From Marinitoga lauensis (GTDB lineage Bacteria; Thermotogota; Thermotogae; Petrotogales; Petrotogaceae), in assembly GCF_004135675.1 (NCBI RefSeq), contig NZ_QHLX01000004.1, positions 124,001-188,000 on the forward strand: a DNA stretch of 64,000 nucleotides, read 5' to 3'. Position 1 is the first letter of the stretch. Each line of letters opens with the position of its first letter. The notes below the pieces were generated by a model. It saw only the letters and a program-made list of their open reading frames with translations, ran no database searches and was not told the origin of the DNA. Shown one piece after another: positions 7,001-59,492 of this stretch. The position numbers were made by a program, and so were the translations under genes.

Positions 7001-7721
7001 TATATTTACAGGAGCTGTAAAAATACTATTTAAAGCAAAAGTAATTGATGCAGATGGTTCTGAAATTTCTCCAGAAAATATTATCTGGATCTCAAATATT
7101 GATGGTCAAATAGGCAATGGTATTGAAATAAATAAGAAATTAAGCGCTGGAAAACACGAAATAACGTTAAGTGCTATGAGTAAATATAATGGCTCAGTAA
7201 CAAAGAAAATATCCATCCAGGTATTGGAAGAAGCAAAAGCAGAACAGAAACTCGTAATAGATGTTGAAGATGGCCTTTTAGTAATTCAAAATCAACCAGT
7301 TGAACTAAGTGCATATAAAATAGGTGTAGAAGGCGATATAATCTGGACATCAGATATTGATGGTGAATTGGGGACAGGCGATACAATAGAAGCTATACTT
7401 TCAACACCTGGAGAACACGAAATAACAGCCAGTGTTGGAGATATATCAAAATCTGTAAGAGTTAAAGTAATTCCATATGAAGAAAAAAGAGAAGTTATAG
7501 CAGTTGTCATCGGATTAAAAGGGGTAGCTTCAACCAGATATAAAGATAATACAAATGATTTAAAAATCTTATCCCCTCTATATAATGGTGATACTTTAAT
7601 AATTTATAATGACACTGAAATAAAGTTAGCTTTCAAAGACGGAGCACAAAAAACTTATACTATAAATACAAACGAAGGTGTTAAGTTTGAAGATAGAAGA
7701 GAAATTACATTTAATGAGTGA
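1023..7721 (+). CDS. Giant exported protein with about 20 Ig-like repeats (three frame breaks)
   Basis: Read as one gene it gives about 2233 residues. The N-terminus is a signal peptide (residues 1-23). A ~400-residue region follows, then about 20 repeats of 75-95 residues, each with the core pattern IxWYxNGxxIGxG followed by YTFxxxGxYxIxA. These resemble Ig-like/PKD folds of surface proteins. The last ~75 residues (VIGLKGVASTRY, LYNGDTL, LAFKDGA) look like a FecR-type beta domain. Frame breaks sit near 2268-2274, at CCC 4026-4028 and at GGG 5569-5571. One added base at each joins the frames, and the joining stretches themselves encode good repeat sequence. The start has an AGGGGTG site. The next gene begins 13 bases downstream. 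Role not known; a structural or adhesive part of the outer sheath is my inference. Confidence 0.7.
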
Positions 7722-7734
7722 AGGGGGATAAAAA

Positions 7735-10298
7735 ATGAAAAATAAACTATTAATAATAATCTTTATATTAATAATTTCAATGATTACATTTTCTCAAGAA
7801 GTGATATATAAAAAACAGGTATATGAAGGACAAAATGTAAAAATTGATGTAAATTTCAAATCAGGACAAACTTTTAGTGAAGCAAAATTATTCTTTAAAG
7901 TTTATGATGAAAGAAAGTTTAATATATTAAAACTAAGAACTTTTCAAAGTTCAGCGGAAGCTGTCATTCCGGCAGCTCTGCTTACTACTACAAAATATAA
8001 TTTTTACATTCAATTAATAGATGATAAAGGTATAGTACAAAGATTCCCGAAGGATTTGGAAATTATTATCAATTTGAGGTATTACCGGACACTTTAAGCC
8101 CTAAAATAAAATTTATATCTCCTTTAAATGGACAAAGATTTTTTGATAATGAATTAATACCAATTGCTATATTATTGGATGAAAACGAAACAGGTATAGA
8201 TCCTAAAAGTATTGTTTTTAAAATAAATGATAAACCTATAGAAAATTTTAATCTCGAAGGGAATTTATTGACCTATAAACTTACCAACGCACCTTTTGGT
8301 GAATATAATATATTTGTCAAAGTTTCAGATAAAAAAGGAAATGCTTCGAAACCTGTTGAAATAAAAGTTATGATGAAAGAAAAGGGGCCACCTTTAGTAG
8401 AATTTACCTTTAATAAAAGTTATGAATTAGCCTCTGAATTTAAATTTGAAAGTGCAATATCTACATCCAATGAACTGGTGGAAACAAATATTCTTGATTC
8501 TTTAGATATGAACTTTTCTCAAAATATCAATTTAGGTGCAAATCTTAGATTCTGGGTATTTAACTTTGGATTTAGAACTACATTATCTCAGGAAAGCACC
8601 GATATAACCCAATTATTCAAAGATTTTACAGGGCAGCTTAATTATGATGTAAAAGATGCTATGAGACTATTAAATCCTATGAATATGGACGATTACTCAA
8701 ATTATGAAATACCAAGAAATATTGACGTAACTAATAACTTAAATGTTTATTTAGATCTGGCATTTTTCAAATATCAATTTTTTGATAATCTTATAAACTT
8801 TAACCCATTAACGGTAAATAATTATAATGTGAGAGGACATTATGCTAAATTAGATCTTTATCTGGCTAAAGCAGAAGTTGCAGTAGGAAACAGTGATGTT
8901 GGTATATTTGAAACATCTTATCCTCGTTATTTTGCAGGTGTTAAACTTGGAGCAAATCTATTTGAATTATTAAAAGCAAACGTTGACGTTTCTGTAATAT
9001 CAGATTATCAGGGAACACAGGATAATAGATATATAAAATCACTTTTTGAACTTCCTGATACAGTTACACCAAAACAAAATATCTTGATTGGTGCAAATAC
9101 ATCTCTGAATTTATGGCTACTTAAAATTAATGCAGATCTTGGTGTGGATTTATATATTGATGATTCTTCAAATATTATAAGCATTACAGACATGGCATCA
9201 AGTATTGCAGATATGGCTGGAGATCCAACAATAAAAGATACTGTTGAAGATTATGTCACACAAATAGAAGATGTATTTCCAAAAACATTTGATTATTTCC
9301 CAATATCAAATGGTATATTATCAGCTGTTACAGATAAATATCTTTTAGGAACTGCTATTTCTTTAAACGGTGAAATTCCAATGTTAGGTCTAAATTTATA
9401 TTATTTAAAAGCAGATAAAAATTATAAATCGCTTGGTGTTTCTGCACCATCTAATGTAATGAAATATGGAGCTAAATTTAAAAAGAAATTATGGATTCTT
9501 GATTTAAAGGGAGAATATGAACTTAAAAAAGACAATACCTCTTTAGTTGGTCTGGATGAAGTATTAGGAGTAGCATTGGGATCCCTGGATACTGCAACAT
9601 TAATTGATAAAATTAATCCTATAAATGATATTTTGGGTAATGAAAGTGCTCCTGCATCATCTACTAAAGATGACTTAAGAAATATAACCGAAAAATATAA
9701 ATTAAATGGTAGTTTAAAATTAGGTATATTAGGAACATTGGGAGGAGAGTATTCTGTTGAACATCAAACAAATAATGCTCAATTTTTGATTGATAAGAGT
9801 GCAACAACAACTATTACATCAGATGATAAAAAAGATAAAACAATCACTGCATATTCTGTCTCTTTAAAGAATTTAGGTTTTAAATTGGATAGTTTTTCAT
9901 TGAAATTATCCTTCGATGCGGGCTTAAAAAATGTTGAAGACAAAATTGATAACAATAATAATGGAGTTTTACTAACTTATGGTGCAAAAGCCAACATGAC
10001 ATTAGGACCTATAGGTCTAAATGGAGCATACAAACAAAAACAGGAAGAAGATACTACTACAATAGAAATGGGCGGTGGCTTAAAAACAAAACTTTTCCAG
10101 ATTAATTATTCAAATATAAAGAAAAACGATAATGCTACCAATGAATTATTATCTGATACCAATAAAATAAATACCAAAGTTAATTTCAAGGTTAGTATTA
10201 TATCAATGCAGGTAGGTGCCCAATTACAATTGCCTGATACATATTCTGATCAGGAAGGAAAAATAAATGCTTATATGAAATTTGCTGTTTCATTTTAA
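7735..10298 (+). CDS. Exported beta-barrel-like envelope protein (one frame break)
   Basis: About 854 residues after repair. A signal peptide ends near residue 21 (MITFSQ). Residues ~30-215 form one or two Ig-like domains (ISPLNGQRF, KVSDKKGN). The rest is long amphipathic strands rich in N, L, K, D and G, ending YMKFAVSF. A C-terminal Phe on a final strand is typical of outer-membrane barrels. The frame is lost at CCC 8046-8048; a fourth C restores FPEGFGNYYQFEVLP. A strong GGGGG ribosome site precedes the start, and the gene follows the Ig-repeat gene by 13 bases, so the two are probably co-transcribed. A terminator hairpin follows at 10311. I do not recognise a named family. Confidence 0.65.
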
Positions 10299-10310
10299 TT
10301 AATAAAAAAT

Positions 10311-10350
10311 AAAGCCATCTCATTGTTTAATGTGAGGTGGCTTTATTTTT
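10311..10350 (+). terminator. Rho-independent terminator of the Ig-repeat/barrel pair
   Basis: A 12-bp stem (AAAGCCATCTCA pairing with TGAGGTGGCTTT, one G-T pair) is followed by ATTTTTAAT. It lies 13 bases after the barrel gene and separates it from the lipoprotein gene. Confidence 0.8.
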
Positions 10351-10385
10351 AATATTTTTATCTATGTTTTAATTCGGACTATTTG

Positions 10386-10394
10386 TGTTATAAT
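10386..10394 (+). promoter_or_regulatory. Extended -10 promoter element
   Basis: TGTTATAAT, 57 bases before the lipoprotein start, is identical with its flank to the element at 914. The two envelope operons may share a promoter type. Confidence 0.45.
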
Positions 10395-10450
10395 TAAAAC
10401 AAGAAAGTATTCTAATTGTAAAAACTCATTGAAAACAAAGGAGTGATACT

Positions 10451-13400
10451 ATGAAAAAGTATATTGTTATTGGATTATTGATAATCCTAATATTATCTTT
10501 ATCCTCATGTATAAAAAGTGTAAAAGTTAAAACGAAACCCAAATTAGGTGTTCCTGTAGCAGCTACTACTATGTCTTTAAATGATTTCGTTAATTTAGAG
10601 GACAACATTAAGTCCATTTTACCAGAAGCTGAAATTATTTCATTAGATGGCACAAAAACCATTCATTATGCTACGGGTTTAACGGTTGATTTAAGTCAAT
10701 CATTTAAAAAATTTGATGCATTCAGTACTTCCGTATATCAGGAATTAACTATTCCAGAAATTGATGATATTGATCCTATATCTGTTGATATTCCATCTAT
10801 ACCCTCAATTGATCCTATTAGTGTGGATGTTCCTGATTTTAACTTTACTCCTCAAAATATCAATGTATCTGTTCCTAATATAAATCCTGCTAATGTAAAT
10901 CCAGATGTTACCGTTGGTGAGATTGATGTGGAAACTGCAGGTGTTCAATTACCAACTATTACTTTATCAATACCTGTTTTGGGTAATACTAACGATGGAA
11001 CTTCAACTAAAGCCACAATAGATGCAAATGGAACATTCTCAAAACTCACTTTCTCAACTGGTTCTCTAACATTAGATGTTTCAAATAATGATGATGGAGC
11101 CACTGTAGAAGTTGACGGAATTATTGAAAATACAGATAATACATTTTTAAGTAGTAATATTTTAACATTAAACTCAAATTCTTCTGGAATTTTATCCTTT
11201 GATTTAACTGATAAAAGTATTTCAGATAGTGCCACTATAACATTAAGAGCTACCATAACTTCAGATTCAGGTGATGGTTCTAACAATCTAATAGCAGATA
11301 AATTAAATTTTTCATCAGGAACAAAAATTAAATCTGCAGAAGGTATTAAATTCACTACAGCAAAATCAATTTCTCAAAATATAGATCCTAATATGGGAAC
11401 TACAGATTTTTCAACTATAACTATTGATGGAACATTTAATATAAATATTGATTTACCCATTGAATGGTCTAATGTAAAAACAGAATTTGAAGCTACTATT
11501 TTATATAACTATGGTTCTAAAAGTATTGTTTTAGCTAATAAGTCATTTACAACTTCAGATAATTTATCTTTTTTAAGCAAATCATTACCGCCAAATGGAA
11601 CCTTTGAATTTACTATAGATTCTACTTTTACTAATACTGATAATGAAAAAGCTAATATTGATTTTACAAAATCTCCAACAATAACTGTTATTCCTGAAAT
11701 AAGTATAAAATCAATAGATGGAATTAGCCTTAATAATACACAAAATATAGATTTACCAGACGACATAAAATCTGTAATCTTAAATGGTGGAGAAATTACA
11801 ATTTCTATAACAGATACGGAGGTAAGTTCTATTAATGCTAATTTTGAATATTTTAATGGAACAAATGTTGTGAAAAAATCATTTATTATATCAAATGGAA
11901 ATGCTATTCTTGATATGGACGGATTAACTTTGACTGGAGAAGGAACAAAAGACGCAACTATTACTATAAATAGCATTTCTCTTAATTTTGGAAGTTCTGG
12001 ATTAAGTGTAGATAATATAACTGCAAAAGTTGATTTAACTGAACCCGCAATATCTAATGTTGAATTAAAAACCACTATAAAACAATCTATTAGCATTCCA
12101 AATAATATAGAAAACGTTAAATTTAAATCAGGAAATTTAAATGCTTCTTTAAACACAGGAAGTTTTACAAATATAACAGGAGTTTTAGATACCGGATTTG
12201 AAAATATTGATTTAACAACAAAGGATGGAACTATTAATGTCGACTTAACAGGAAAAATGTTATCCGGAACAAAAGATGCAACATTGAATATTTCAGAAAT
12301 GTCTTTAGATTTTACATCTAATCCATTATCCTTTGGAAACACTTTATCTGTTTCTCCCACATTGGATAACTTAAAAATTTCCGAAGCAACAATCACGAAT
12401 AATATCAATCAAAGTGTAAATTTGCCAGATAATATAAAGAAAGTTATATTTGGTTCTGGTAGTATTGAAATTACACTGGATGATGTAAAATTCACAAGCA
12501 TAAATGGAACATTAACTTATGACTCTACTGAAACAGCATTAACTATATCTCCAGAAGGAACTGCCTTGATAGATTTAACCAATTTAGAATTAGGTTCCCT
12601 GGTGCTAATATTTCTATCGATAAAATTGGAATAAAGTCTGATTTAGGAATAAATTTAGGTGATACCATAAATGCTAATATAAATATTAAAAATCCCAAAA
12701 TAAGATATGCGAACATTTCCACGGATCAAGATCTAAATATTATAAATACACAAACTGTAAAATTCCCATCAGAAGCTAAGGATATTCTTAATTCAGTTAC
12801 TTTTACCGGAACATCAAATATTAATATTGAATGGAATAATAAACTGCCTATTGATATTAACGTTAATTTAAGTGCTCCTGAACTATCCATTAGTGACTCT
12901 TTTGTTATGAGTGGTTCTAATTCACATTTGATTTCTTTATCAAATAAAACTATTGATTTGAATAACCCTATCAATTTTAACTTTGAAGCATCTCCTACAA
13001 ATTATGACGAGATAAATAAAATTATTACAATAGATATAGATAATCCATCAAATTATCTGACGCTCGGTAGTACTTATACATTATCAGCAACTATCTCTTT
13101 AGACTATGAATTAGACGCATCTATAAAGCCATTTAATATGGAAATTATACCTCAAGATGATCCTTTAAATTTTGAGATTCCTATTTCTGATGATGTAACT
13201 TTAACATTAAATGATATCGATATACCAGGTTTTAACGCTAAAGTCATTGGAACAATTCCTGAAGGAATTGCTAACTCAAATAATTCTATAACTTTAAGAG
13301 CAACTTATACAGGAAACAATACCTCAAGCTCTACTAATACCACTATTTATTTAGATAATACAACTATAGAGAAGGATATAACAGATTTCTTAAAAGCTGT

Positions 13401-13960: not shown

Positions 13961-15228
13961 ATGAAGAAAACTATTTCTATCTTATTTATATTAATTGTTG
14001 GTATTTTTGTTTTTTCAAATCCAACTGTAAATAAGCCCTGGAATTATTCGTTTAATCCTGCTCTATTGGATTTTGGTACCAGAAACTTTATAGATATTGG
14101 CGGAAATGTGGATTTAGATTTAATACAACCATTTTTTAATTTTGGCGATTTATTCAAAGAAGATGTTATAATAGATTTTAACGAAATATATAATAATTTA
14201 GATGGAAAAAATTTAAATATTTTATTGGATGCCAATGGAAGTGCTTATGGAAAAATTTATTTATGGTTCTTAACATATGCTAAGACTATCAATATTTCCT
14301 CAAAAACCAAAATTTCTATCCCAAATGACTTAATAAAGTTCATTTCAGAAGGTAATGTAGTTGATGGAGAATTAATTAATCTTGCAGGAAATGATGGTAT
14401 TTTTAACTCTGATATTATTTTTGAAAGTAATAATTATATTTCTTTGCAAACTAAAAATTCCATTTTCGGTATATCTTTAAGTAATTTTTATCCTATAGCC
14501 TTATTAAGAAGCAATATAAGTTTTGAAAGTATTAATGATATTGAGAATGCTAAAACAAATATAAAATACAGTATTTCTGGAAATATTTATAGCTCCATGC
14601 AATCTTTTGAAGCAATTAATACAAAACTTAATCCAAATTATACTTTTGACAACGGTGGAAAAGGCTTATATGAAGATTTTATGAATGCATTAGATAATTT
14701 TTCTGGACTTAAAATAAATGTTGGATATATAAATAAAAAAGGTAAATGGGGAGTATCTTTAAACGACATAGTTATAAAACCTGCAGAAGTAAAATATCAA
14801 TATACATTTGATGCTACTGGTGCTATTGAAATTGAAAATATGGAGGTTCTCACAGATATAGCAACACCAATAATAAAGTTATATGATGATTTTTCAAATA
14901 GAATATTTCCTGAAATTTCAGGAGATTTACCAATGAATGTATCATTCTTTTATACACTTCCTATAATATTTAACCCAACTCCACATATTCAATATTATTT
15001 TGATAGAGGATTATCATGGGTATAAACTTTGATGGAAACTTATTATTTATACCATTCTGGTTAGATTTAAGTAATAAGATTGATTACTGGTCTTTAAATA
15101 CAGGTTTTGGAATAAATTTATATATATTAGATGCAAATTTTTCTGTTGAAAGTAATGCTTTAATTTTTGAAAATATTTTTAAATTCAAAAACTTTTCCTT
15201 TAAATTAAATATTGCTGCTGGAATCTAA
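13961..15228 (+). CDS. Exported barrel-like protein, 3' end copied beyond the IS (one frame break)
   Basis: About 422 residues. A signal peptide (MKKTISILFILIVGIFVFS) is followed by NPALLDFGTRNFIDIGG, the kind of N-terminus seen in outer-membrane proteins of the PorV/DUF5723 sort. I infer only a general resemblance. Many alternating beta strands follow. I choose the ATG at 13961, with GGTGGTGAG before it, over the GTG at 13949. GGG at 15018-15020 breaks the frame. The second copy of this stretch at 17211-17631 has GGGG at the same place and reads through (LSWGINFDGNLL), so the intact reading is documented inside the window. The gene follows the lipoprotein gene by one base. Confidence 0.65.
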
Positions 15229-47348: not shown

Positions 47349-47680
47349 TCATTCTTTTATAGTACATTTACCATCAATTATAGATACTTTTTCTGATCTT
47401 TTAATATCATTTTCAAATTCGTTTTTTAAATCATCTAATAAAACTTTTAAAAATGAGTATTTATCTAAAAATTTATTGTTGATTTTATATGTTGTAAATA
47501 ACATTTCTTTTGAGGAATGAGTAAATTTATCAATCTCATTTTTGAAATATGTCTCGAAACAGTTGATTGAGGTAATTGCAGTATAGCTGTTAATTCACAT
47601 ACACATCGAGGTTTTAAGTTTAATAGGTTTAAAATTCTTAAACGTGTTTTATCAGCTAAAATTTTCATTAATTCTTCCAT
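47349..47680 (-). CDS. ArsR-family metalloregulator (one frame break)
   Basis: About 110 residues. The winged helix carries LADKTRLRILNLL, then KPRCVCELTAIL with the CxC metal- or metalloid-binding motif at the alpha-3 helix, and LPQSTVSRHISKM as recognition helix. The frame is lost near 47530-47536; adding one base extends the reading to KFTHSSKEMLFTTYKI and a TGA at 47349, giving a normal ArsR length. It should repress its operon until As(III) or a similar thiophilic ligand binds the Cys pair. A perfect 16-bp palindrome lies right before it (47700). Confidence 0.82.
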
Positions 47681-47957: not shown

Positions 47958-49639
47958 ATGAAAAAGAAGCTTATTGTACTTTTTATCATGGCGGTTTTTT
48001 TGTTAACAGCTGCAATAGCTTTTGCAGCAGGGGAGATAGTGCAGAAGTGAATTATGGTTTTTGGTCTGTTATTCCTCCATTATTAGCTATCATTTTAGCA
48101 TTTGTTACAAAAGAAGTTATATTATCATTGTTATTAGGTGTTTTTTCGGGTGCTCTTATTAATGTTTTCGCTACATCAAGTTCAGGTTTCTTTATGAAAC
48201 TTGTAGAAAGTTATACAAAAACATTAGAGTATCCAGTAAACGCTTTGGCTGATGGTTGGCATGCAGGTATTATTATATTCACATTAACAATAGGTGGTAT
48301 GGTTGGCGTTATTGCAAAAATGGGTGGAACAAGAGCTATAGCTAATGCTCTTGCTAAAAAAGCAAAAACAGCCAGAAGTGCCCAGGTAGCTACAGCATTA
48401 ATGGGTGTTGTTGTATTCTTTGATGATTACGCTAATACATTAATAGTTGGTCCTACAATGAGACCTTTAACAGATAAATTAAAGGTTTCAAGGGAAAAGT
48501 TATCTTATATCGTTGACTCAACTGCTGCACCAGTTGCAACAATGGCAGCAATTTCAACATGGATAGGTTATGAATTAGGTTTAATCGGAGATGCTTTTAA
48601 ATCATTAGGTGTAGAAGTAAATCCATATAATGTATTCTTCCAATCAATTCCATATAGAATGTATGGTTTATTTGCATTATTTATGGTATTCATGGTTGGT
48701 ATTATGATGAGAGATTTTGGACCAATGTATGAAGCAGAAAAAAGAGCAAGATTAACAGGAAAGGTTTTAGCTGATGGTGCAGAACCAATGTTATCAACAG
48801 ATTTTGAAAAAGACCTTGAAAAAGATAATATCCCATTAAAAGTTTCAAATGCATTAGTCCCTATCTTAACTTTGGTTATTTTTGCATTTGTAGGATTATG
48901 GTATTCAGGTGGAGGAATGGATAATCCATTTACATGGGATGGCATTAGAGATGCTTTCGGTAATGCAGATGCTTCTGCAGCATTAATATGGGCTTCAGTA
49001 TTAGCAAGTATCGTTGCTGTTGTTATGGCGGTATCTCAAGGAATAATGACATTGAGAAAAGCTCTTGAAGCATGGGTTGAAGGTGCAAAATCATTGGTTA
49101 TCACTACAATTATTTTGATTTTGGCATGGTCTATAGGTTCAATAGCTTCTGATCTTGGAACTGCTGAATACTTGGTGCAGGTTGTATCCTCATCATTACC
49201 TGGTTGGTCAATTCCTGTATTAGTATTTGTTATGTCTTCTATTGTTGCTTTCGCAACAGGCACATCATGGGGTACAATGGCTATTATGTTACCTTTAGCT
49301 GTTCCTCTTGCAGCAGCATATACAAATAATGAACCTTCAACATTGGTATTTGCAACCTTGGGTGCTGTTTTAACAGGTTCAACATTTGGTGATCACTGTT
49401 CTCCAATTTCAGATACAACTATTATGTCATCAATGGCATCATCTGCAGACCACATTGATCACGTTAAAACACAATTACCATATGCACTTACTGCTGCATT
49501 AATTGCCGCAATTGTTGGTTATATTCCAGTTGGTTTAGGATTACCTGTATGGATTTCATTAATCTTAGGTTTTGCATCAATCTGGGCAGTTTTAAGATTC
49601 TACGGAAAATCAACAGATCCAAAAGACTTAAAAGCTTAA
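47958..49639 (+). CDS. NhaC-family Na+/H+ antiporter (one frame break)
   Basis: About 560 residues and 12-13 helices. Family marks include the motifs FFDDYANTLIVGP, STAAPVATMAAISTWIGYE and FGDHCSPISDTTIMSS. The first 28 residues (MKKKLIVLFIMAVFLLTAAI then AFAAG) look like a signal or extra helix. They join the main frame only if GGGG 48030-48033 gains one base (AAGGDSAEVNYGFW). The start at 47958 has AAGGAGGGAG. It exchanges Na+ for H+, or a related amino-acid or organic substrate, at the inner membrane, and is relevant to a marine or saline habitat. Single gene with a terminator. Confidence 0.88.
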
Positions 49640-49646
49640 TAACAAT

Positions 49647-49678
49647 AAAAAAGGAATGGCTTCAGCCATTCCTTTTTT
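49647..49678. terminator. Bidirectional terminator
   Basis: A perfect 14-bp stem AAAAAAGGAATGGC/GCCATTCCTTTTTT lies between the antiporter and the convergent ABC permease. Confidence 0.9.
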
Positions 49679-49682
49679 ATTA

Positions 49683-50418
49683 TCATCCCCAACACTAATA
49701 TACCTTTCCAATGATTTTTTGAAAATTATATTTGCTAATAAAAATAATAAAATAGCAAATATAAAATATTTTATCATAAATACTTTTTTTATTAAGCTTT
49801 CTACTGGAACATTTGCGAAAAGACTTACCGGAATTACTATAAAAACATATTTCCAGAAAGACGTATAAATATTTTTAGGTAAATATGCATATGAAAAAAG
49901 GGTATTAATAGTATCTTCAAGTAATTTTACATTTACAAAAATAAAATTCAACGAAGTAATTATTAATTGAAAAGAATATCTTATCAGAACCATGATAATG
50001 ATGTTTAAAATATATATTATAAAATCTGATATATGCCAATTATAAACATTTAATATAATATATAAATTAGGTATTAGGGTAATTAAATATAAAGAGTCCA
50101 TATTTATTATAGATAAAATCCATCCAACATTCCTGGGCATTAAAATATAATTATCTAATTTTCCCTCTATGATTAAATTACTTAAATTGAGAAGCGATGA
50201 GCCAAAAAAAGTATAATATATTGTTTCTACAATAAAAGCAGTTCCGATTAATAATAACATTTTTTCATTTGATATATTAATATTGAAATTACTCTTTATT
50301 ACTGAAAAGAACATTATTGTTATTAATAATTCATAAATCCCCATAAAATCATTAATATAGTATCTTTTAAAAATAACATTCTAATTTTTATCCCATTAAT
50401 AAAACTTTGTACAAACAT
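49683..50418 (-). CDS. ABC-2 type permease, DUF990-like (two frame breaks)
   Basis: About 245 residues after repair, almost the length of its neighbour (246). It has six hydrophobic helices. Two runs are one base short. CCCC 50339-50342 joins the N-terminus (MFVQSFINGIKIRMLFLKD) to the main frame. CCCC 49687-49690 gives the ending ERYISVGG with a TGA at 49683. Without the second correction the frame runs into the terminator. The gene upstream ends KYETAGG, the same family ending. Last gene of an ABC exporter operon; start three bases after its neighbour. Confidence 0.78.
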
Positions 50419-50420
50419 TA

Positions 50421-51161
50421 TCAACCACCTGCTGTTTCATATTTTGAGATTGCATAATTGTAAACCATATTTGAGATAATAAATATTATTAATATCCAGA
50501 ATAATAATTTTAAAAAATTGCCAATATCTATTACACCATTTGCAAATGCCTCACCAGGAAAATTCACTATATAATTAAATGGTAAAAATTCCAAAACCAT
50601 TTTAATTTTATTCGGAAAAAATTTAATAGGAATTATACCGCCAGAAATTATTCTAAATAAACTATATGACCAGAACGAAAGAGAATCTCCTTTTTTTAAC
50701 CAAAAAGCACTTAAACTAAATAAAATTGAAATTAAAGAAGATAGAATAAGAGAAAATGGAAAAATTACTAATAAAACCACTAAATTTTTAAGAGGTATAT
50801 TGAAAATAATCGAAAATATAAAAATAAAAGGCAAAGTTAAAAATATGTTGTATAATGGGTATACAATTTCTACAATGGAAAAATAGAGAATTTTATTTAT
50901 AGGCATTAGAATTAAATTATCAAATTCACCATTTCTAATCAAATTAAAAAAACCGGGCTTTATTACCGGAATTATATGAGATAAGAAAAATGAAAGAGAA
51001 AAATAATATCTGATTATCCTATCCTTCTCTCCTATTCCGGATTGTAAAAAGAGATATAAAAAGAAGAAATTAATGATATTTTGAAAAATATATAAATACC
51101 AATTAAGTTTGTATGCTTTTAATTTTTTCATCAATAATCTACTATATTCTAAATATTCCAT
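50421..51161 (-). CDS. ABC-2 type permease, DUF990-like
   Basis: 246 residues with six predicted helices. The segment NLIRNGEFDNLILMPINKI between helices two and three is matched in the downstream paralogue by NLIIEGKLDNYILMPRN. Such LLRP-type loops and the C-terminal AGG are features of the DUF990/PF06182 exporters. The ATG overlaps the ATPase stop by one base (TAATG). It probably pairs with the gene at 49683 as a heterodimer. Substrate unknown. Confidence 0.78.
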   Translation of the reverse strand: MEYLEYSRLLMKKLKAYKLNWYLYIFQNIINFFFLYLFLQSGIGEKDRIIRYYFSLSFFLSHIIPVIKPGFFNLIRNGEFDNLILMPINKILYFSIVEIVYPLYNIFLTLPFIFIFSIIFNIPLKNLVVLLVIFPFSLILSSLISILFSLSAFWLKKGDSLSFWSYSLFRIISGGIIPIKFFPNKIKMVLEFLPFNYIVNFPGEAFANGVIDIGNFLKLLFWILIIFIISNMVYNYAISKYETAGG

Positions 51162-51985
51162 TATACTAACTCCCTTAATATATCTTCAATTGTAATATCA
51201 TTTATTTGAATTGATTTTATATTTTTTAAAGAAATATCTGGAACTTTGAATTTATTTATTATTTCTGATTTTGTTGTTCCATCAGAAAATACATAATCAA
51301 CTTTTTTTAGTTCTTTAAAGTGTTCTATTTCACTTTCCTTGAACCTTCTCAAAATTTTACCTTTATCAAATATTATTAATTCATCTACAATCTCAGATAA
51401 TATATTTATTTCATGGGTTACTATAAAAATAGTTTTTCTCTCTTTCTTCTGCATTTTTAGAAATTCTATTAATTTATTTTTTGAATCAACATCTATTCCA
51501 ATAAAAGGTTCATCTAAAATAATTAATTTTGGAGAATGAATTAATTTAGCCAGAACTTCGCATTTTACCCTTTCACCAAAAGATAATAATCTAACAGGTT
51601 GATGAATTTTGTCTTTAATATCTAACATTTTTCCAAAATATTCGACTTTATTCATAAAATCCTTTTTATTTATTTTATAAACCTTCGCTAAAAATTTATA
51701 GAAATCAATAGCGGGTAAAGAATAATCAAGAATTCCTTTTTGAGGATTAACAAAAGAAATTTGTTTTAAGAATTCTTTGTTTTTTTTATGAGGAATATAG
51801 TTAAATACTTTTACTTTTCCATTTGTTGGTTTTATAATTCCAGCCATCACTTTTAGGAAAGAGCTTTTACCAGAACCATTTTTCCCAACAATACCTATTG
51901 TTTTGTTATCAGGTATAGATAGATTAATCTCTGACAAGATGGTTTTATCTTTTATCTTCAAAGTAACCTCAGAAAACTCAATCAA
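51161..51985 (-). CDS. ABC exporter ATP-binding protein
   Basis: 274 residues. Walker A is GKNGSGKSSFLKVMAG, the signature LLSFGERVKCEVLAKL and Walker B LIILDEPFIGIDVD. The Phe in the LSFGE signature and the short Q-loop region (SFVNPQKGILDYS) are those of exporter-type ATPases paired with DUF990 permeases. The start is a TTG at 51985 with AGGAG nine bases upstream; no better ATG is in frame. First gene of a three-gene operon that lies just beyond the small peptide gene. Confidence 0.82.
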   Translation of the reverse strand: MIEFSEVTLKIKDKTILSEINLSIPDNKTIGIVGKNGSGKSSFLKVMAGIIKPTNGKVKVFNYIPHKKNKEFLKQISFVNPQKGILDYSLPAIDFYKFLAKVYKINKKDFMNKVEYFGKMLDIKDKIHQPVRLLSFGERVKCEVLAKLIHSPKLIILDEPFIGIDVDSKNKLIEFLKMQKKERKTIFIVTHEINILSEIVDELIIFDKGKILRRFKESEIEHFKELKKVDYVFSDGTTKSEIINKFKVPDISLKNIKSIQINDITIEDILRELV

Positions 51986-52297
51986 TATTCATCACTCCTA
52001 CAGATTTAACCTTTTTCATTTTTTAAGAGGCATAAATTTTTCTTTTTATAAATGTTGAATATTGAGATTTTAATATTTTTTCAAGACTATCATTAAAAAT
52101 GATATCAAAATTTTCTCACTTTTTCAATTTTAATTTCAATTCTCAAAATAATTTAATTTATTTACATGAAAGATACAGTAACTGAAATCTCATTTTTTTA
52201 ATATTTTTATATCGATTTTATACTATAAAGGCCATCTGCTTGGATTAGAGCAGATGGCCTTTAGTAATTATTACACATTGTTTATAAAAAATAAATT
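51986..52297. other. 312-bp intergenic region between peptide gene and second ABC operon
   Basis: It holds the hairpin at 52226-52263 and the leader of the ATPase gene. I see no open frame longer than about 11 codons with a ribosome site. Confidence 0.5.
52226..52263 (-). terminator. Strong hairpin after the peptide gene
   Basis: A perfect 14-bp stem TAAAGGCCATCTGC/GCAGATGGCCTTTA lies 35 bases past the peptide stop. The U tract is weak, so it may be a processing or stabilising hairpin instead of a terminator. Confidence 0.6.
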
Positions 52298-52420
52298 TTA
52301 AGGTACTAAATTAATTTTTCCACCAATTGGACTATAAAATTTACAGAATTTACAGAAATTAGGCTCTTCGATATCGTAGCAACCAATTTCTAATATTCTT
52401 ATTTTTCTTTTCTTTTTCAT
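52298..52420 (-). CDS. 40-residue Cys-containing peptide, possible RiPP or signalling peptide
   Basis: ATG 52420 is preceded by GGAGGCAAGACT. The product is MKKKRKIRILEIGCYDIEEP then NFCKFCKFYSPIGGKINLVP. The N-terminal half is basic and amphipathic; Cys residues are at 14, 23 and 26, with a GG at 34-35. It follows an ABC ATPase and permease by 16 bases on the same strand, and a second ABC exporter operon lies beyond. Short Cys peptides next to ABC exporters are known in Thermotoga (the TM1316 locus) and among RiPP precursors. No modifying enzyme is recognisable here. Coding status is supported by the ribosome site, the spacing and the composition. Confidence 0.6.
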   Translation of the reverse strand: MKKKRKIRILEIGCYDIEEPNFCKFCKFYSPIGGKINLVP

Positions 52421-52436
52421 AGTCTTGCCTCCTTAT

Positions 52437-53183
52437 TCAAAGTATTTTTTCTAAAATATACATACTTTTTAATTTTTTATTTATATAAAATATCAATAAA
52501 AATGAAAGAACTATAATTAAACTATAAGATTGCCATAAAGGAAAAATCATATATCTTTTATTTAGTTCTGTTCTTATTATATTTAATATATGAACAATTG
52601 GATTTATGTATAATAAACTTTTTATTATTATATTGTTGCTTTTTATTTGATAATAAACAGGGGATATTATCATTAAAATATAACTAACAAGTGGCATCAA
52701 CCCCATTAATGCATAATAATTTCTTACCTTTAAACCTATTGCAATTGATATTAAAATAACCAAAAAATTTCCTAGCAACAGAGGCACTAATGTTTTGAAA
52801 ATTATTTCCATTATATTATCTGCTATAAATAAATATGATATAAAAAATATTGGCATTGTTAATAAAAAATAGGTTATTCCCAGTGAAAATATTATTATTG
52901 TTTTTGAAACTGAAAAAGTTGTATATAATTCAATAACTTCAGCTTGCATTAAATTTGAGACTCTTAAAGACAATATTCCAAAATATGCACCTATCATCAT
53001 TGAGATCATAAATCCGCTAACCAAATAATCCATATTTGTGCTTTTATTCAATAAAACAATTATTAAATAGGAAAATGGAATTAAAAACATACTTACAAAT
53101 ATTTGAAATTTAAACATTCTCATTCCTTTAAATTCTAATTCTACTCCTGTTTTTATTTTATTCCATATTTTTAACAAGTTCAT
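52437..53183 (-). CDS. ABC-2 type permease of the peptide-linked exporter
   Basis: 248 residues from ATG 53183, which has AAGGAG; an earlier in-frame ATG at 53213 lacks one. It has six hydrophobic helices, with FSVSKTIIIFSLGITYFLL and a PLVSYILMIISPVYY stretch before helix five, as in ABC-2 drug and peptide exporters. The start lies 26 bases inside the ATPase gene, so translation is coupled. The 40-residue peptide gene follows directly, which makes the peptide the obvious candidate cargo, though the pair could also confer immunity. Confidence 0.78.
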   Translation of the reverse strand: MNLLKIWNKIKTGVELEFKGMRMFKFQIFVSMFLIPFSYLIIVLLNKSTNMDYLVSGFMISMMIGAYFGILSLRVSNLMQAEVIELYTTFSVSKTIIIFSLGITYFLLTMPIFFISYLFIADNIMEIIFKTLVPLLLGNFLVILISIAIGLKVRNYYALMGLMPLVSYILMIISPVYYQIKSNNIIIKSLLYINPIVHILNIIRTELNKRYMIFPLWQSYSLIIVLSFLLIFYINKKLKSMYILEKIL

Positions 53184-54048
53184 ACACTCCTTTTTCAAAG
53201 GATGGATATTCAATATTTAAATATTGAATATCATTATATTCTTTTATTTTTTCAATAATACTCAAAGCTTCTGATAATTCGGAAAAAAACAATGAATAAT
53301 TGTTCCCTTTGGACATGTGAATAATATTTTTATCTTTTATTATTTTTTCTAACTTTTTTGGATTTACTACTGATATATTTAATTCAACAGGAGTTTTGAC
53401 TTTTCTATTTATTTCCTCAATTTTTCCATTATATATAATTTCACCATTTGTAATTATAATTACTTTATCAGCCAAAATTTTTATTTCATTCATATCATGG
53501 CTAGATAATAATATACCTTTATTCTTCTTATATTTCTTTATTAAATTCCAGATCCTTTCTTTATTTATTATATCAACCATTGATGTTGGCTCATCTAATA
53601 TTACTATATCAGGATCTTGAGAAAATGCTAATGCTATCATTATTAATTTTTTTTGTCCTCCTGAAAGAGTATAATTATATTGTTTTCTTATACTTGTTAA
53701 TCCTGTTTCTTGAAGGATGTTTTCTGTCTTATTATTAATATCTTTTGAATTTAATCCTTCAAATTTCAAAGGAATCTTTATACTTTCTTCAACAGTAAGA
53801 GAAGGAAAAAAAACAGGCATTTGCGGAACATAAGAAATTTTCTTCACTTTATCATTTATAATAATATTTCCAGACGTTGGTTTTAATAATTTTAAAATCT
53901 GTCTTATTAATGTTGTTTTTCCTGCACCATTTGGACCAACCAATCCAATAATTTCATTTACATTTAATTTAAAACTTATATTTTTATTTGCTTTCACTCC
54001 ATTAGGATAAGTTTTACATATATTTTCTATTTTTAATAATTCTTTCAT
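53158..54048 (-). CDS. ABC exporter ATP-binding protein of the peptide locus
   Basis: 296 residues. Walker A is GPNGAGKTTLIRQIL, the Q-loop SYVPQMPVFFPSLT, the signature TLSGGQKKLIMIALAF and Walker B IVILDEPTSMVD; the switch His is in LLSSHDMNEI. A ~90-residue C-terminal extension is typical of drug/bacteriocin-immunity ATPases. The ATG follows a GGAGG that lies in the last codons of a broken upstream frame (54057-54235). First intact gene of the peptide locus. Confidence 0.85.
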   Translation of the reverse strand: MKELLKIENICKTYPNGVKANKNISFKLNVNEIIGLVGPNGAGKTTLIRQILKLLKPTSGNIIINDKVKKISYVPQMPVFFPSLTVEESIKIPLKFEGLNSKDINNKTENILQETGLTSIRKQYNYTLSGGQKKLIMIALAFSQDPDIVILDEPTSMVDIINKERIWNLIKKYKKNKGILLSSHDMNEIKILADKVIIITNGEIIYNGKIEEINRKVKTPVELNISVVNPKKLEKIIKDKNIIHMSKGNNYSLFFSELSEALSIIEKIKEYNDIQYLNIEYPSFEKGVYELVKNME

Positions 54049-54056
54049 TTATTTTA

Positions 54057-54235
54057 CCTCCATGGAGTAATTACTTATAACATACGCTTTTATTAATTTT
54101 TGTATATTCTTATTTAAATATTCTAAAAACTCTTTTGCTTCATTTATATTATTATCATTTATATTCATTCTAAGAGTTATTTCTCTTTTTTGATAATATT
54201 TTCTGGTACCAGAAAAAGTCTGCTAGCAGCCAAAT
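54057..54235 (-). pseudogene. C-terminal remnant of an unidentified gene
   Basis: An open stretch without a start encodes TFSGTRKYYQKREITLRMNI, then a helical NEAKEFLEYLNKN and a stop that overlaps the ATPase start. Adding one A near 54211 extends it to FYLAASRTFSGTRK, then stops. The sequence is protein-like and would have been translationally coupled to the exporter. It is either degenerate or truncated. Family unknown. Confidence 0.4.
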
Positions 54236-54609
54236 AGAAAATTTTGATTTAAATAATAGAAAAAGTATGATTAATATTACGGTTTATAAAATGTGAATTT
54301 TATAACTTTTATATTCAAAAAATCTCAATAGATTAAATTTCATTTATTCACAACAAAATTCGTTTTAATTTTTAATTCACAAGAATTTTATCAAAAAAAA
54401 CATTGATGTAAATTTAGAGTGAATTTTATTTTTCGTAAATTTAATAAATTTACTCTTTTATTATATCACTTGATATATTTTTTATTGTTAATTTTTTGTT
54501 ATATAAATATTAGTTGTATGTTTAAACTACTGAAATCAGTTTATTTTATATAACAAAAAAGCTCATCACTGAGCTTTTTAAAAAAGAAAAAATTTTAAAG
54601 TAAAATTAA
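54236..54609. other. 374-bp AT-rich region without an intact gene
   Basis: Apart from a hairpin at 54556-54579 (AAAAAGCTCA/TGAGCTTTTT) I find no gene. Short open stretches on the minus strand (for example from an ATG near 54355, reading MKFNLLRFFEYKSYK) may be decayed upstream parts of the remnant at 54057. Confidence 0.5.
54556..54579. terminator. Terminator-like hairpin
   Basis: A perfect 10-bp stem AAAAAGCTCA/TGAGCTTTTT with a TCAC loop and A/T flanks on both sides. The gene it serves is not clear. Confidence 0.55.
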
Positions 54610-54612
54610 AAA

Positions 54613-54718
54613 TTTTGCAATTAAATATGGTCTTGGTCAAAAACACGTTACTTTAGGATATTACTCTTTTGAAGATGATGAAAGAGCTTTTCTTGACTCT
54701 ATTATTGAAAAATTTTGA
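54613..54718 (+). pseudogene. Short plus-strand gene remnant with its own terminator
   Basis: The open stretch encodes FAIKYGLGQKHVTLGYYSFE then DDERAFLDSIIEKF and a TGA. There is no start or ribosome site; stops lie just upstream in frame. It ends right at a strong terminator (54717), so it is probably the 3' end of a lost gene. Family not recognised. Confidence 0.4.
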
Positions 54719-54748
54719 GACCATAAAAATTATTTATGGTCTCTTTTT
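54717..54748 (+). terminator. Terminator of the plus-strand remnant
   Basis: A perfect 11-bp stem GAGACCATAAA/TTTATGGTCTC is followed by TTTTT. Confidence 0.85.
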
Positions 54749-54793
54749 GCAAAGCAAAAATTATTTTTTCTATTTTTTATATAATAATTATTC

Positions 54794-56351
54794 CTAAAAC
54801 CCTTCGCGTAGCGAAGTGGCTTTTTCAATAATATAATCCTCAATATTTCTTTTTTCTGAATTTATGTTTATTCCTATAAGATATATTTCTTTTCCTCTGT
54901 ATTTTTCATAGTATTTCTTTTCTTTTATCTGATTTATCGCTTCTTCTGCGCTTTTGTCTAATTTCGCTTCGATTATATATACTCTTTCATTGAATTCTAA
55001 TACTACATCACTTCTTCCAAGATTTGTCATTTCTTCTGCTCTTACGTTCAATCCTGCTATTGCCAGTATTGCAAATATCAATGAGTGATAATATCTTTCT
55101 TCTTTTTCATGTAGATTATACGGTATTGCACTTATTACTTTCTTCATTTCTTCTATTAATCCTTCTATATCATTGTCATATATCTTTTCATATATTATAT
55201 TTTCTGCTTCATCTAATCCTTTTAATCCATAGTTTGCTTCTAATATTAATCTTGAGAAACTGCTTTTTACTTCTATGTTTGGATAGTCAAGTATATATTT
55301 CTTTTTTAATCCTAATTTTTTTATTCCTTTAAATGTTAGATATCCTGCCTGTGTGAAGAATATATTTGCATTTGCATCTTCTATTTCTCTTGTTGAGAAA
55401 TCCATTGCACTTACTGTTTCTTTTACTAAGTCTTCATATGTTATCTTTCTGTTTTTTATGTATTCGTATAAGAATGATGGGGATCCACTTTCAAACCAGT
55501 AATTTTTAAATTCTTTTTCTTCAAAGAATTTTAATATTGAGAATGGATTATATACATAATGTTCTCCATCAAATGAAAAGCCATTATAATATTCTTTTAA
55601 TCCTTTTAATAATTCTTCTTCACTTATTCCCATTTCTTCTGATGTTTCTTTTATATGGTCGCTAAAATACGTTTCCAATTCTTCCTGTGTATATCCTAAC
55701 ATCTGTGAGTATTTTTTGTTTAATGATATATCGTTTAAATTGTTTAATGCAGAGAATACTCCTGTTTTTGTGAATTTCGTTATTCCTGTTAAGAATACAA
55801 ACTTTATATATTCGTCTTTTGTTTTTATTTTTTATAAAACTCCCTTAGAAATCTTCTTACTTTCTCTGCTTCTTCTTTATTGTTTAGAGGTTCTAATATT
55901 GGCGCTTCATATTCATCTATTAATATTACCACTCTTTCTTTATGTTTTTTGCTTAATCCAGTTATTAAGTTTCCAAACATCGTTGGTAAATCATCTGTTG
56001 TTGGTTCTATTTCCTGTTCTTTATATAATTCATTAATTTTATCATATAATGATTTAATAAATTCTTCATATGAGCTCAGATTATTATCAGACATATCCAG
56101 TTTTATTATAGGATACTCTTTAAATTCCCATCTATCATATATATATGTATCCTTAAATAATTCTTTTTCTCCTTTGAATATATAATATAATGTTGATACT
56201 GTTAAGCTCTTTCCAAATCTTCTTGGCGTGATAGAAAATAAAATTTTCCACTTGTCATTAAATCATACAGATATTTTGTTTTGTCTACATATATATAATT
56301 TTCGGTTATTAACTCTTTATAATCCTGTACCCCTATTGGCAATTTTTTCAT
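54794..56351 (-). CDS. AAA-ATPase-like protein with C-terminal PDDEXK nuclease domain (two frame breaks)
   Basis: About 519 residues after repair. The N-terminal PF09820-type ATPase starts MKKLPIGVQDYKELI. Its Walker A reads LSRPRRFGKSLTVSTL once GG 56225-56226 gains a base. Walker B is VVILIDEYEAP. T6 55828-55833 also lacks one base (restoring FYKKIKTKDEYIKFVF). The C-terminal PDDEXK_9 domain has GRSDVVLEF then YIIEAKLD, the D-ExK core. GGAGG precedes ATG 56351. This family is spread in many copies through anaerobes, and its role (defence, mobile element or regulation) is unsettled. Confidence 0.85.
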
Positions 56352-56383
56352 CGTTTCCACCTCCTCCTGCCACAATTATATCA

Positions 56384-56415
56384 TAACAAAAATGGAGTTC
56401 ATTGAACTCCATTTT
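56384..56415 (-). terminator. Terminator after the acidic hypothetical gene
   Basis: A 13-bp perfect arm AAAATGGAGTTCA/TGAACTCCATTTT with a single-base centre; on the minus strand TTTTTGTTATG follows. Confidence 0.8.
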
Positions 56416-56416
56416 G

Positions 56417-56913
56417 TTAGAATATCTTTAATCTGAAACTTTGAATATCCTCATCTGTACTTTCATATTCTTCTTCATCAACTTTTTTATATTCCCAATC
56501 AAACAGGGTTAAGAATATTTTCCCTTCTCTGCATTCTGTAAATAATGATGGAACTGTATCTTCTTCATTATCAACACTCATTGCTTCAACTATAAACGAA
56601 TATGCTTTTGCCTCTGTAATATCTGCTACTTCTTTTAATAAAACTTCAGCATCTTCAAATTCTTTTTCACTTCCAAAAGAAAATGGAAATGGAATTGGAA
56701 TATCTTCCACATCATTATCATATTCTCCCAGCATTTCTTTTAAATCATCTGCGTAGTCTGCATCATATTCTGCCACTTTTTCTACTAACTTTTTCATTTT
56801 TTCATCATTTAATGATGCCATATCATTACAGTTGGATGGATGTGGTCACCATGAAAAATACCATCATTAGCTCCCTCAATAGCTGCTTCATGATAATTTC
56901 TACATTCTGCCAT
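56417..56913 (-). CDS. Acidic hypothetical protein (one frame break)
   Basis: About 165 residues after repair. MAECRNYHEAAIEGANDGIF then HGDHIHPTVM (ATG 56913, GAGGTGAG upstream) joins the main frame near 56820-56826, where one base is missing (likely VMDMASLNDEKMKKLVEKV). The rest is strongly acidic with helices (EYDADYADDLKEMLGEYD) and two beta-like stretches (AYSFIVEAM, KIFLTLFDWEYK). No signal peptide, so cytoplasmic. No family recognised. It follows nrdJ by about 70 bases on the same strand. Confidence 0.55.
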
Positions 56914-56981
56914 GTTTCTCACCTCAAATGTTATTTATATAATTGATTATATAATAAATTATTTAAATTTAATATATTTTA

Positions 56982-59492
56982 TTATGAACATTTTGACCAG
57001 CCACATGTTTTACAGGAAATACATCCTTCTATCATTAATAGTGAGTTTTTACTTAAACAGGTGGGACAATATGTATTTCCTTCATTATCAATATAATATC
57101 CTTTTGTATATTCTAATTTATTGGCATGAACAAACTTTTCAACCTCTTCCTTACTTAAAGGTTTTCCTACGTGAAATACCTCTATATCTTTTTCTTCCAT
57201 AAATCTTTAAAATCTTCAAGAGCACTTTTGATTTCTTTCGATATACCCTTACAATATGAACCTTTTACTTTGGATAATTGTTCCAAGATTTCATCTACTG
57301 AAACACCTGATCTTAATGCAATAGATGATAATCTACCAATTATTTCCGCCGTTTCTGTTCCATCTGATAAGAAGATTTCTATGGCTTCTCCATTATCATC
57401 AAATGATACTGTAATATAAACAGTTCCTTCAGGAATTTTAAATTTTCTGGTTACGCTTTTTAAAGTTTCTTTTCTTGGCCTTGCCCTTAATTTATGTTTT
57501 TCGTCTAATACAAAGAATGTAACCTTTTTATCTTCTTTTTTAGCTTTTGTTAGTACCTGAGTTTCTAACGATCCATCTCTGTAAATGGTGATACCTTTTA
57601 GATTTAATTCCATAGCTTTTTTATATATTCCTTTTATATCTTCAACTGTAGCTTCTTTAGGTAAATTTATTGTTTTAGAGCATGAAGCATCTAAATAACT
57701 CTGGATAACATTTTGAGCTAAAAGATGATCCATTCCAGATATATCCATTGCAGTTACAAAAACCTCTTTAATTTCTTCTGAAATACCTTCAATGGTTTGA
57801 ATCGAGCCTTTTTCAATAATTTCTGCTTCTAATTCACTATTTAAAGAACCATCTAATTTTTCTTTTAAAATATTATTTATATATGTTAATGGTACTCTAT
57901 TACCTTCTTTATCAGTCATATATCTAATGTATGCAAGCATAAAGTTTGGTTCAATACCACTTGACGTATCAGCAATATTTGAAATAGAACCAGTTGGAGC
58001 TACAGTATTTACCTGAACATTTCTTTTATATTCTTTTGCTTCACCAAAAAAATGTTCTTTTATTAATTGATTCCATTTTTTTATGTTTTCTGAATAATCG
58101 TCTTCTAACATTGGAAATGGGATAAATCCATCTTTATATCTGGATTTCGTAAATAATGGGAAATTACCTCTTTCTTTTGCAAACTCTGTGCTGGCAAGAT
58201 GAGAATAATATGCAAATTGTGCCATTGTTTCTGCCATAAATCGTCTACCTTCTTCAGAGTTATATGGCAGGCCTTTTTTATACAATGCATCAGCTAACCC
58301 CATAACTCCAAGACCTATAAACCGTTGTTCTTTTGAAACTTTATCTATTTTTTCTAATGGATAAACGTTAATATCAATAACATCATCCAAAATCTTGCAG
58401 TCCAATATATTAATTCTTTAAATAATTCATTTGTTTCTGAATCTGGATTTCCCAATTCTATGAAATCATTTACTTTTGATAAGTCAATAGAGCCCAAATT
58501 ACAACTTCCATACGGCGGCAAAGGTTCTTCCGCACAGGGATTAGTAGCACTGACTGGTGTTTCATCACCCAAGGCATAATATTTATTATGCCTTCCAAGA
58601 AAAAGCATTCCAGGATCTCCTGATTTCCATGCATTATTAGCCATTAAATCAAATAATTCTCTTGCCTTTATTGTTTTTTTTATATTTGAATTTGGATGAG
58701 ATAATTCTATTTCCTCATCATTTTCTAATTTTTGCAAAAACTCCTCAGGATTATCAAAATTAACTGATATATTGAAATAATTTAAAACAGATTTCCCATC
58801 ATTATCTTTTTTAGAATTAATAAAATCTATTATATCAGGATGATCATATCTCAAAACAGCCATTTGAGCTCCACGTCTTGCCCCACCCTGTTCTATTGTA
58901 GAAGCGGTAGTATTAAAAACATGCATAAAACTAATTGGCCCTGATGATTTTCCACCTGTTCCTGCAATAGAACTTTCTTTTGGCCTTAATACAGAAAAAT
59001 CATATCCTACTCCCCACCATATTTTTGTATTAAGGCAGCATCTTTAACTGCATCAAAAATACCTTCCATTGAATCTTCAAGCGGAACAACAAAACAGGCG
59101 GAAAGCATATTATGTCTTGACCTTGAATTGTATATATTTTTATAATCTTCAAAAGTCATATCTTCAAGATTTTTTTTGAAGATTTCCTGGTCTAATGTTT
59201 TTCCAGCATTAAATAATGTGGGACTATTAGGGAGAAAGACACGACTTTTTAATAATTTAAAATAAATATTTTCCACTTTTCGGATTTTTTCTATATCTTC
59301 TGTATAAAGTGTTTCTGCACTTGCAATATATCTTGATACCCTTCTTGCAATATCTTCCCATGTGTGTTCTAAATAATTTCCTTCACCATCCTTTAATAAA
59401 TATCTGTCTCTTAAAATTCTTTCGGCATTATCTGAAGGTTTAATATCAGAAAAAAAATCTAAAAAATCTTCAAGATTATACAATTTTTCCAC
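56982..59492 (-). CDS. nrdJ: Adenosylcobalamin-dependent ribonucleotide reductase, class II (three frame breaks)
   Basis: About 837 residues after repair. It reduces ribonucleotides to deoxyribonucleotides using B12. Motifs include FLPNSPTLFNAGK, NTTASTIEQGGARRGAQMAV, NPCAEEPLPPYGSCNLGSID (active-site loop), ARFLDDVIDINVYPL, and the C-terminal double CxxC tail CPTCLSKNS with CISCKTCGWSKC that re-reduces the active site. Breaks: CCCC 59012-59015 (restores KYGGGVGYDFSVLRP), AAAA 58389-58392 (restores TARFLDDV) and AAA 57201-57203 (restores KDFMEEKDIEVF). The gene is essential in this kind of organism, so three true inactivating mutations are implausible. It starts at 59492 with a GGGGG-type site. 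Confidence 0.92.

Follow-up and report, generated by a model that had tools for sequence, protein, structure and literature searches.

Sactipeptides and ranthipeptides, as the accessible parts of two papers present them, are encoded by a gene for a short Cys precursor that adjoins genes for a radical-SAM enzyme and an ABC transporter (PMC8172795, PMC8326336). The accessible part of a 2014 survey of anaerobes gives one sactipeptide cluster in the Thermotogae, for which nine genomes were examined (PMC4289311). In Bacillota, peptides are described, in the part of the source available, as signals that act through TPR receptors (PMC10075063). Literature searches, which covered few subscription journals, found, to judge by the listings, nothing related to RRNPP or TPR quorum-sensing peptides in Thermotogota, no Thermotoga paper naming two or more of TM1315, TM1314 and TM1298, and none on radical SAM peptides or RiPPs of Marinitoga.

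The Thermotoga locus used for comparison was that of genome G093 (L116, G093:C1:1333310-1336942). Its 31-aa peptide (1335354-1335449) belongs to NF033413, RiPP_TM1316, with 84.5 bits at a cut-off of 35. Directly before the peptide stands a 57-aa ORF that begins with a hydrophobic stretch, and 3' of the peptide a radical-SAM/SPASM protein, the best model of which is NF047865 (PapB ranthipeptide maturase; 135 bits at a cut-off of 340). Frames that by eye resemble ABC transporters come next. Facing the peptide is a 535-aa protein related (tblastn E 8e-24, 25% identity) to a 481-aa protein found in the Marinitoga genome G002 and described below.

The window analysed here is a stretch of 64,000 nucleotides from Marinitoga lauensis (NZ_QHLX01000004.1, positions 124,001 to 188,000). 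On its minus strand, at 52298-52420, it carries an ORF for a 40-aa Cys peptide with the translation MKKKRKIRILEIGCYDIEEPNFCKFCKFYSPIGGKINLVP; the plus-strand reading of the same interval contains stops and is not open. An earlier, sequence-only reading had pointed to this frame, to its position after an ABC pair and to its strong ribosome-binding site. The frame indeed starts 16 nt past the permease stop, with GGAGG (52428-52432, minus strand) 7 nt 5' of its ATG. The three Cys residues named in that reading lie at positions 14, 23 and 26, with the CxxC at 23-26, and the GG near the C-terminus at 33-34. No hydrophobic signal sequence is apparent by eye. The hairpin and the exporter operon said to follow the gene were also found, at 52226-52263 (16-bp stem, no strand assigned, 3' of the peptide gene) and 49628-51985, the hairpin being terminator-like on the plus strand only, that is, opposite to the direction of the peptide. 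Rfam gave no match at gathering score across 49000-57000.

Judged by frame statistics alone, the ORF is a modest find and no great rarity. Frames 25-80 aa long that have GGAGG and three or more Cys number 0.2 per shuffled window (20 shuffles) versus two in the real one, the second of which (47465-47680) resembles, by eye, the start of an ArsR-type regulator. Relatives add to this picture. Among 41 genomes searched (own included), clear ones occur in a single other genome, G002 of the same genus. It has two copies, 82-83% (the nearer) and 60% identical to the window peptide (E 3e-17 and 1e-11), which stand on either side of a matching ABC ATPase/permease pair. The window peptide is closest to the copy behind the permease. 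The nearer copy differs at 21 nucleotides, and 13 of these changes are synonymous, against an expected share of about 19% (P=2e-5). The ORF is beyond chance because it is conserved in G002 with synonymous-biased change. That it is a chance intergenic frame, as the roughly 0.2 such frames per shuffled window might suggest, is very improbable in view of two homologues, their same positional context and that bias. The peptide gene is a real gene.

The two relatives differ from the window peptide at telling positions. Its Cys14 is S or T in both, for which reason the search pattern IGCYDIxEP, proposed in the sequence-only reading, would miss them. Their third core Cys is Tyr in the window peptide, which could be a mild sign of relaxed constraint. 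In 103 Thermotogota genomes, strong peptide matches (query: the window peptide aligned with both G002 copies) and strong permease matches occur together in the same two genomes and in no other. At E up to 1 the peptide profile hit 71 of the 103, the best beyond the three strong ones reaching E 0.004 over 14 residues with a stop; such matches were excluded as relatives for their shortness and poor E-values. The permease has weak matches in 13 further genomes (E 1e-6 to 2e-3), which were excluded from the count of the same exporter. With these uncounted, conservation of the exporter without the peptide, named beforehand as the refuting case, is absent among the 103 genomes. Neither the peptide nor the permease alignment, scanned against contigs from which records of near genomes were possibly omitted, gave a relative outside the genus, and viral contigs yielded none. 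A second Cys peptide was looked for in the window's own genome, and none was found. The peptide represents a very narrow precursor-like family, present in 2 of 103 genomes, which is new and ordinary in kind.

The ABC pair before the peptide consists of an ATPase (53158-54048, minus strand), which matches PF00005, has Walker A, LSGGQ and Walker B motifs and is 79% identical to its G002 counterpart, and of a membrane protein (52437-53213, minus strand; 76% identical) whose position after the ATPase makes it permease-like. A simple hydropathy scan gave seven hydrophobic segments in this protein. At E up to 1 it matches nothing in Pfam or NCBIfam, it has no solved-structure relative by sequence, and its structure model (pLDDT 45) is unusable, so the label "exporter" follows from the neighbouring ATPase and the hydropathy. 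No C39 peptidase appears among the 25 of 36 Pfam matches listed for the ATPase. The ABC domain of the latter begins at residue 22 of 296 and thus leaves no room for one. A bacteriocin with a double-glycine leader was rejected, since there is no C39 domain and the GG is not conserved, being WG in one of the two G002 relatives. The earlier suggestion of a RiPP precursor with dedicated export survives as to the precursor-like character and the tie to the ABC pair (2 of 103 genomes); a role of the GG in leader cleavage is not supported. The second ABC operon (49628-51985) comprises an ATPase and two PF06182 permeases, one of them 25-29% identical to permeases of six compared loci, several of which have RiPP clusters. 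No tie between this operon and the peptide was found.

The ancestral order of the locus is probably still to be read in G002 (L012). There, a 481-aa TPR-like protein on the opposite strand (6054-7499) is followed by a secreted-type propeptide, a 41-aa ORF that opens with a hydrophobic stretch (7785-7910). After a palindrome (7989-8002) comes Cys peptide 1 (8055-8177), then a radical-SAM maturase in two parts, a short N-terminal piece (8262-8390) and a 218-aa SPASM piece (8387-9043), and finally the ATPase (9047-9934), the permease (9882-10658) and Cys peptide 2 (10666-10800). Beside the last, at 11045-11160 and before riboflavin genes, is what we take by eye to be an FMN-riboswitch-like sequence. 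Mapped onto a 440-aa relative, the two maturase pieces cover its residues 10-39 and 218-427. The CxxxCxxC, at about residue 102 of that relative, falls into the missing stretch, and the radical-SAM core is absent. As read, the G002 maturase should not work, because this cluster-binding stretch is missing. Its fragment matches NF038107 (2.5e-16), TIGR04280 (4.3e-15) and TIGR04463 (7e-11). The SPASM domain reaches 29.2 bits with TIGR04085 (cut-off 27), and all other NCBIfam models stay far under their curated cut-offs.

The window also retains a trace of the maturase, contrary to the statement that none is visible beside the peptide. Directly upstream of the ABC pair, at 54055-54207 on the minus strand, lies the scar of a radical-SAM/SPASM maturase, in which two ends of the G002 SPASM fragment are joined in one frame with about 145 codons lost between them. 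The first piece corresponds to residues 20-51 of that fragment (72%) and the second to residues 197-218 (82%). The scar reads as a 39-aa ORF (54049-54168) directly upstream of the ATPase. Beyond it, at 54535-54715 on the plus strand, are C-terminal stubs of the TPR-like family of about 480 aa (residues 380-402 and 443-479), divergent from the peptide operon as in G002. The expected place of the propeptide, 54169-54729, contains no minus-strand ORF of at least 30 aa, and peptide 1 is missing as well; the ATPase, the permease and peptide 2 are intact. The genes flanking the locus differ by eye between the window and G002, and the locus thus seems to occupy another place in the chromosome.

Substitutions in the scar amount to pS ~0.43 and pN ~0.17, values summed over two pieces with three codons double-counted and about 33 synonymous sites. 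Dating the maturase loss from these rates was rejected, the sites being too few. An assembly artefact is an unlikely source of the scar, for some 145 lost codons are unlike the indel-type errors suspected in this assembly. Elsewhere in the window, at 57182-59492, a ribonucleotide reductase (by eye) is split over three ORFs, which suggests assembly indel errors or a broken gene. Because genes are split in this manner, single frameshifts in this assembly are distrusted.

The palindrome TTCTGGTACCAGAA occupies 54201-54214 (no strand assigned), and a copy with one mismatch lies at 14071-14084; together they account for four matches in the window (two places, both strands) versus 0.07 expected. In G002, TTCTGGTGCCAGAA is the sole match to the pattern and precedes peptide 1. 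Across the genus, the pattern occurs at one place in G002, two in G000, one in G006 and none in the other four genomes. Since the palindrome is common to both loci and rare, the sequence upstream of the scar is likely to be what was once the peptide 1 promoter. Aligned locally with the G002 stretch, this region gave no significant score (22, reached by 49 of 300 shuffles).

The anatomy and homology of the peptide, its preserved coding frame and the scar are best explained together if the window peptide is the leftover precursor of a stripped radical-SAM/SPASM RiPP locus of TM1316 layout, a reading to which we give a probability of about 0.72. The cluster would have been stripped rather than lacking a maturase by design, because the deletion scar sits directly upstream. 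The genus as a whole also speaks for this reading: SPASM matches at E up to 0.001, a set that goes beyond peptide maturases, are present in 7 of 7 of its genomes, with 6-14 each, and among the loci listed, several adjoin, by eye, short Cys ORFs and ABC-like genes. In the intact locus, the maturase would have cross-linked Cys in the FCxFCxF[C/Y] core of the peptide, which would serve as the precursor. The basic N-terminal half of the peptide may be the leader, and the ABC pair would export the product. The window genome would then have had its TPR-like gene and maturase cut to stubs and lost the propeptide and peptide 1, while keeping the ABC pair and peptide 2. No intact cluster with this precursor family was found, nor an intact cognate maturase in either carrier genome, and it is by position that precursor and maturase are paired. 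The window peptide matters as a new precursor-like family in a locus without a maturase, and thereby as a case of cluster decay.

Three present states of such a leftover precursor may be distinguished. The first is plain decay, in which transporter and precursor are functionless and merely unbroken so far. The stubs of the TPR-like gene and maturase, the vanished propeptide and peptide 1, and the restriction of the family to 2 of 103 genomes all fit this course; the three frames that are intact in both the window genome and G002, with changes that are mostly synonymous per site, do not. Decay is quite possible, though it falls short of even odds. The second state is a change of use, of which the maturase loss would be the sign: peptide and ABC pair would now work unmodified, the peptide serving, for example, as a bacteriocin, as a signal that is exported or in metal binding. 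The frames of ATPase, permease and peptide have outlasted a maturase that is broken in both genomes, and dN/dS between window and G002 is low (peptide 0.08, ATPase 0.20, permease 0.27). However, these ratios span the whole split of both genomes and cannot be assigned to the time after the maturase loss, and the peptide has neither a visible hydrophobic signal sequence nor a conserved GG. Unmodified use is, on this evidence, somewhat unlikely.

The third state is a RiPP that still works because another radical-SAM/SPASM enzyme of the genome modifies the peptide in trans. The window's genome has other maturase-like frames, among them at least two complete-looking maturases with PF04055 and SPASM in one frame, C11:39172 (409 aa) and C7:20189 (430 aa), and the peptide frame is preserved. 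Against modification in trans, these two enzymes share only 23% and 32% identity with the lost maturase over the aligned part, the genome's 39 PF04055 matches all lie outside the window, and the window peptide has lost its third core Cys. It is an unlikely state. Among the loci of the genus that were listed, L028, L033, L034, L041, L044, L045 and L047 carry, by eye, many and varied radical-SAM/SPASM genes beside short Cys ORFs, sometimes several in a row.

The TPR-like family reduced to stubs in the window is far more widespread than the peptide. Members of about 480-600 aa are present in 59 of 103 Thermotogota genomes, and ten aligned proteins measure 473-573 aa. One TPR-like protein compared with solved structures hit designed helical toroids twice, over short stretches and below threshold. 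The family profile had four matches, with a Pumilio protein and the proteasome subunit Rpn6 as targets (E 0.008-0.03). These comparisons point to helical repeats and no further. Orphan C-terminal fragments of the family (about residues 435-480) also occur at G000:C11:46963, G000:C9:107308, G006:C32:11974 and G005:C24:5605.

A divergent secreted-type propeptide, called from hydropathy by a basic start and a hydrophobic stretch, faces 37 of 57 TPR-like members and 2 of 149 control ORFs, in a set that was chosen by the analyst, with a propeptide filter fixed after a first look and regions that are not all independent. The pairs are those of L012 (6054-7499 with 7785-7910), L116 (11311-12918 with 13105-13278) and the regions L119-L178. 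A CxxxCxxC frame lies within about 6 kb of 26 of the 57, and one member faces TM1316. In intact relatives, this arrangement suggests a possible RRNPP-like switch of TPR-like gene and divergent propeptide. Tentatively, and with less than even confidence, the Thermotogota may possess a phylum-wide RRNPP-like system, in which a TPR-like receptor of about 500 aa and a divergent propeptide switch on radical-SAM RiPP loci, including TM1316. The window would then be a stripped descendant, with receptor, signal and maturase deleted and the transporter and precursor kept, perhaps for a use that needs no maturase. Frock et al. (2013) reportedly observed stationary-phase induction of the TM1316 locus. 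A gene pair of the matching kind, in a phylum that is deep and thermophilic and with radical-SAM frames often close by, would make this induction directly testable. The observation on the TPR-like gene and its propeptide outweighs the window peptide in importance and deserves a separate study.

Set against the known systems, the window locus resembles sactipeptide and ranthipeptide loci, as far as the accessible parts of their descriptions go, in its Cys precursor and ABC genes, but it has no working maturase, and the comparison is one of genes alone. The maturase models for CefB, geopeptide, TIGR04463 and Clo7bot are matched by the G002 fragment and by an intact relative; however, the scores are far under cut-offs, and the core is absent in G002 and nearly all absent in the window. 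The RRNPP switches of Bacillota, in the available part of their description (PMC10075063), likewise place a helical-repeat protein and a small propeptide side by side, often by a biosynthetic cluster, whereas the Thermotogota pair has a somewhat longer putative receptor (473-573 aa in the ten aligned, versus 250-500 aa), a divergent order and no sequence family match, again judged from genes alone. The likeness to the TM1316 locus, raised in the sequence-only reading, extends to the layout and not to the peptide family. Neither the window peptide nor either G002 copy has an NF033413 or other NCBIfam match at E up to 1, and membership of the TM1316 peptide family was rejected for want of a match to NF033413. 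The layout itself is shared: a divergent member of the ~480-aa family, a propeptide, a Cys peptide, a radical-SAM/SPASM protein and ABC-like frames. In the window, by contrast, the maturase and the TPR-like gene are stubs, and the permease is of another kind.
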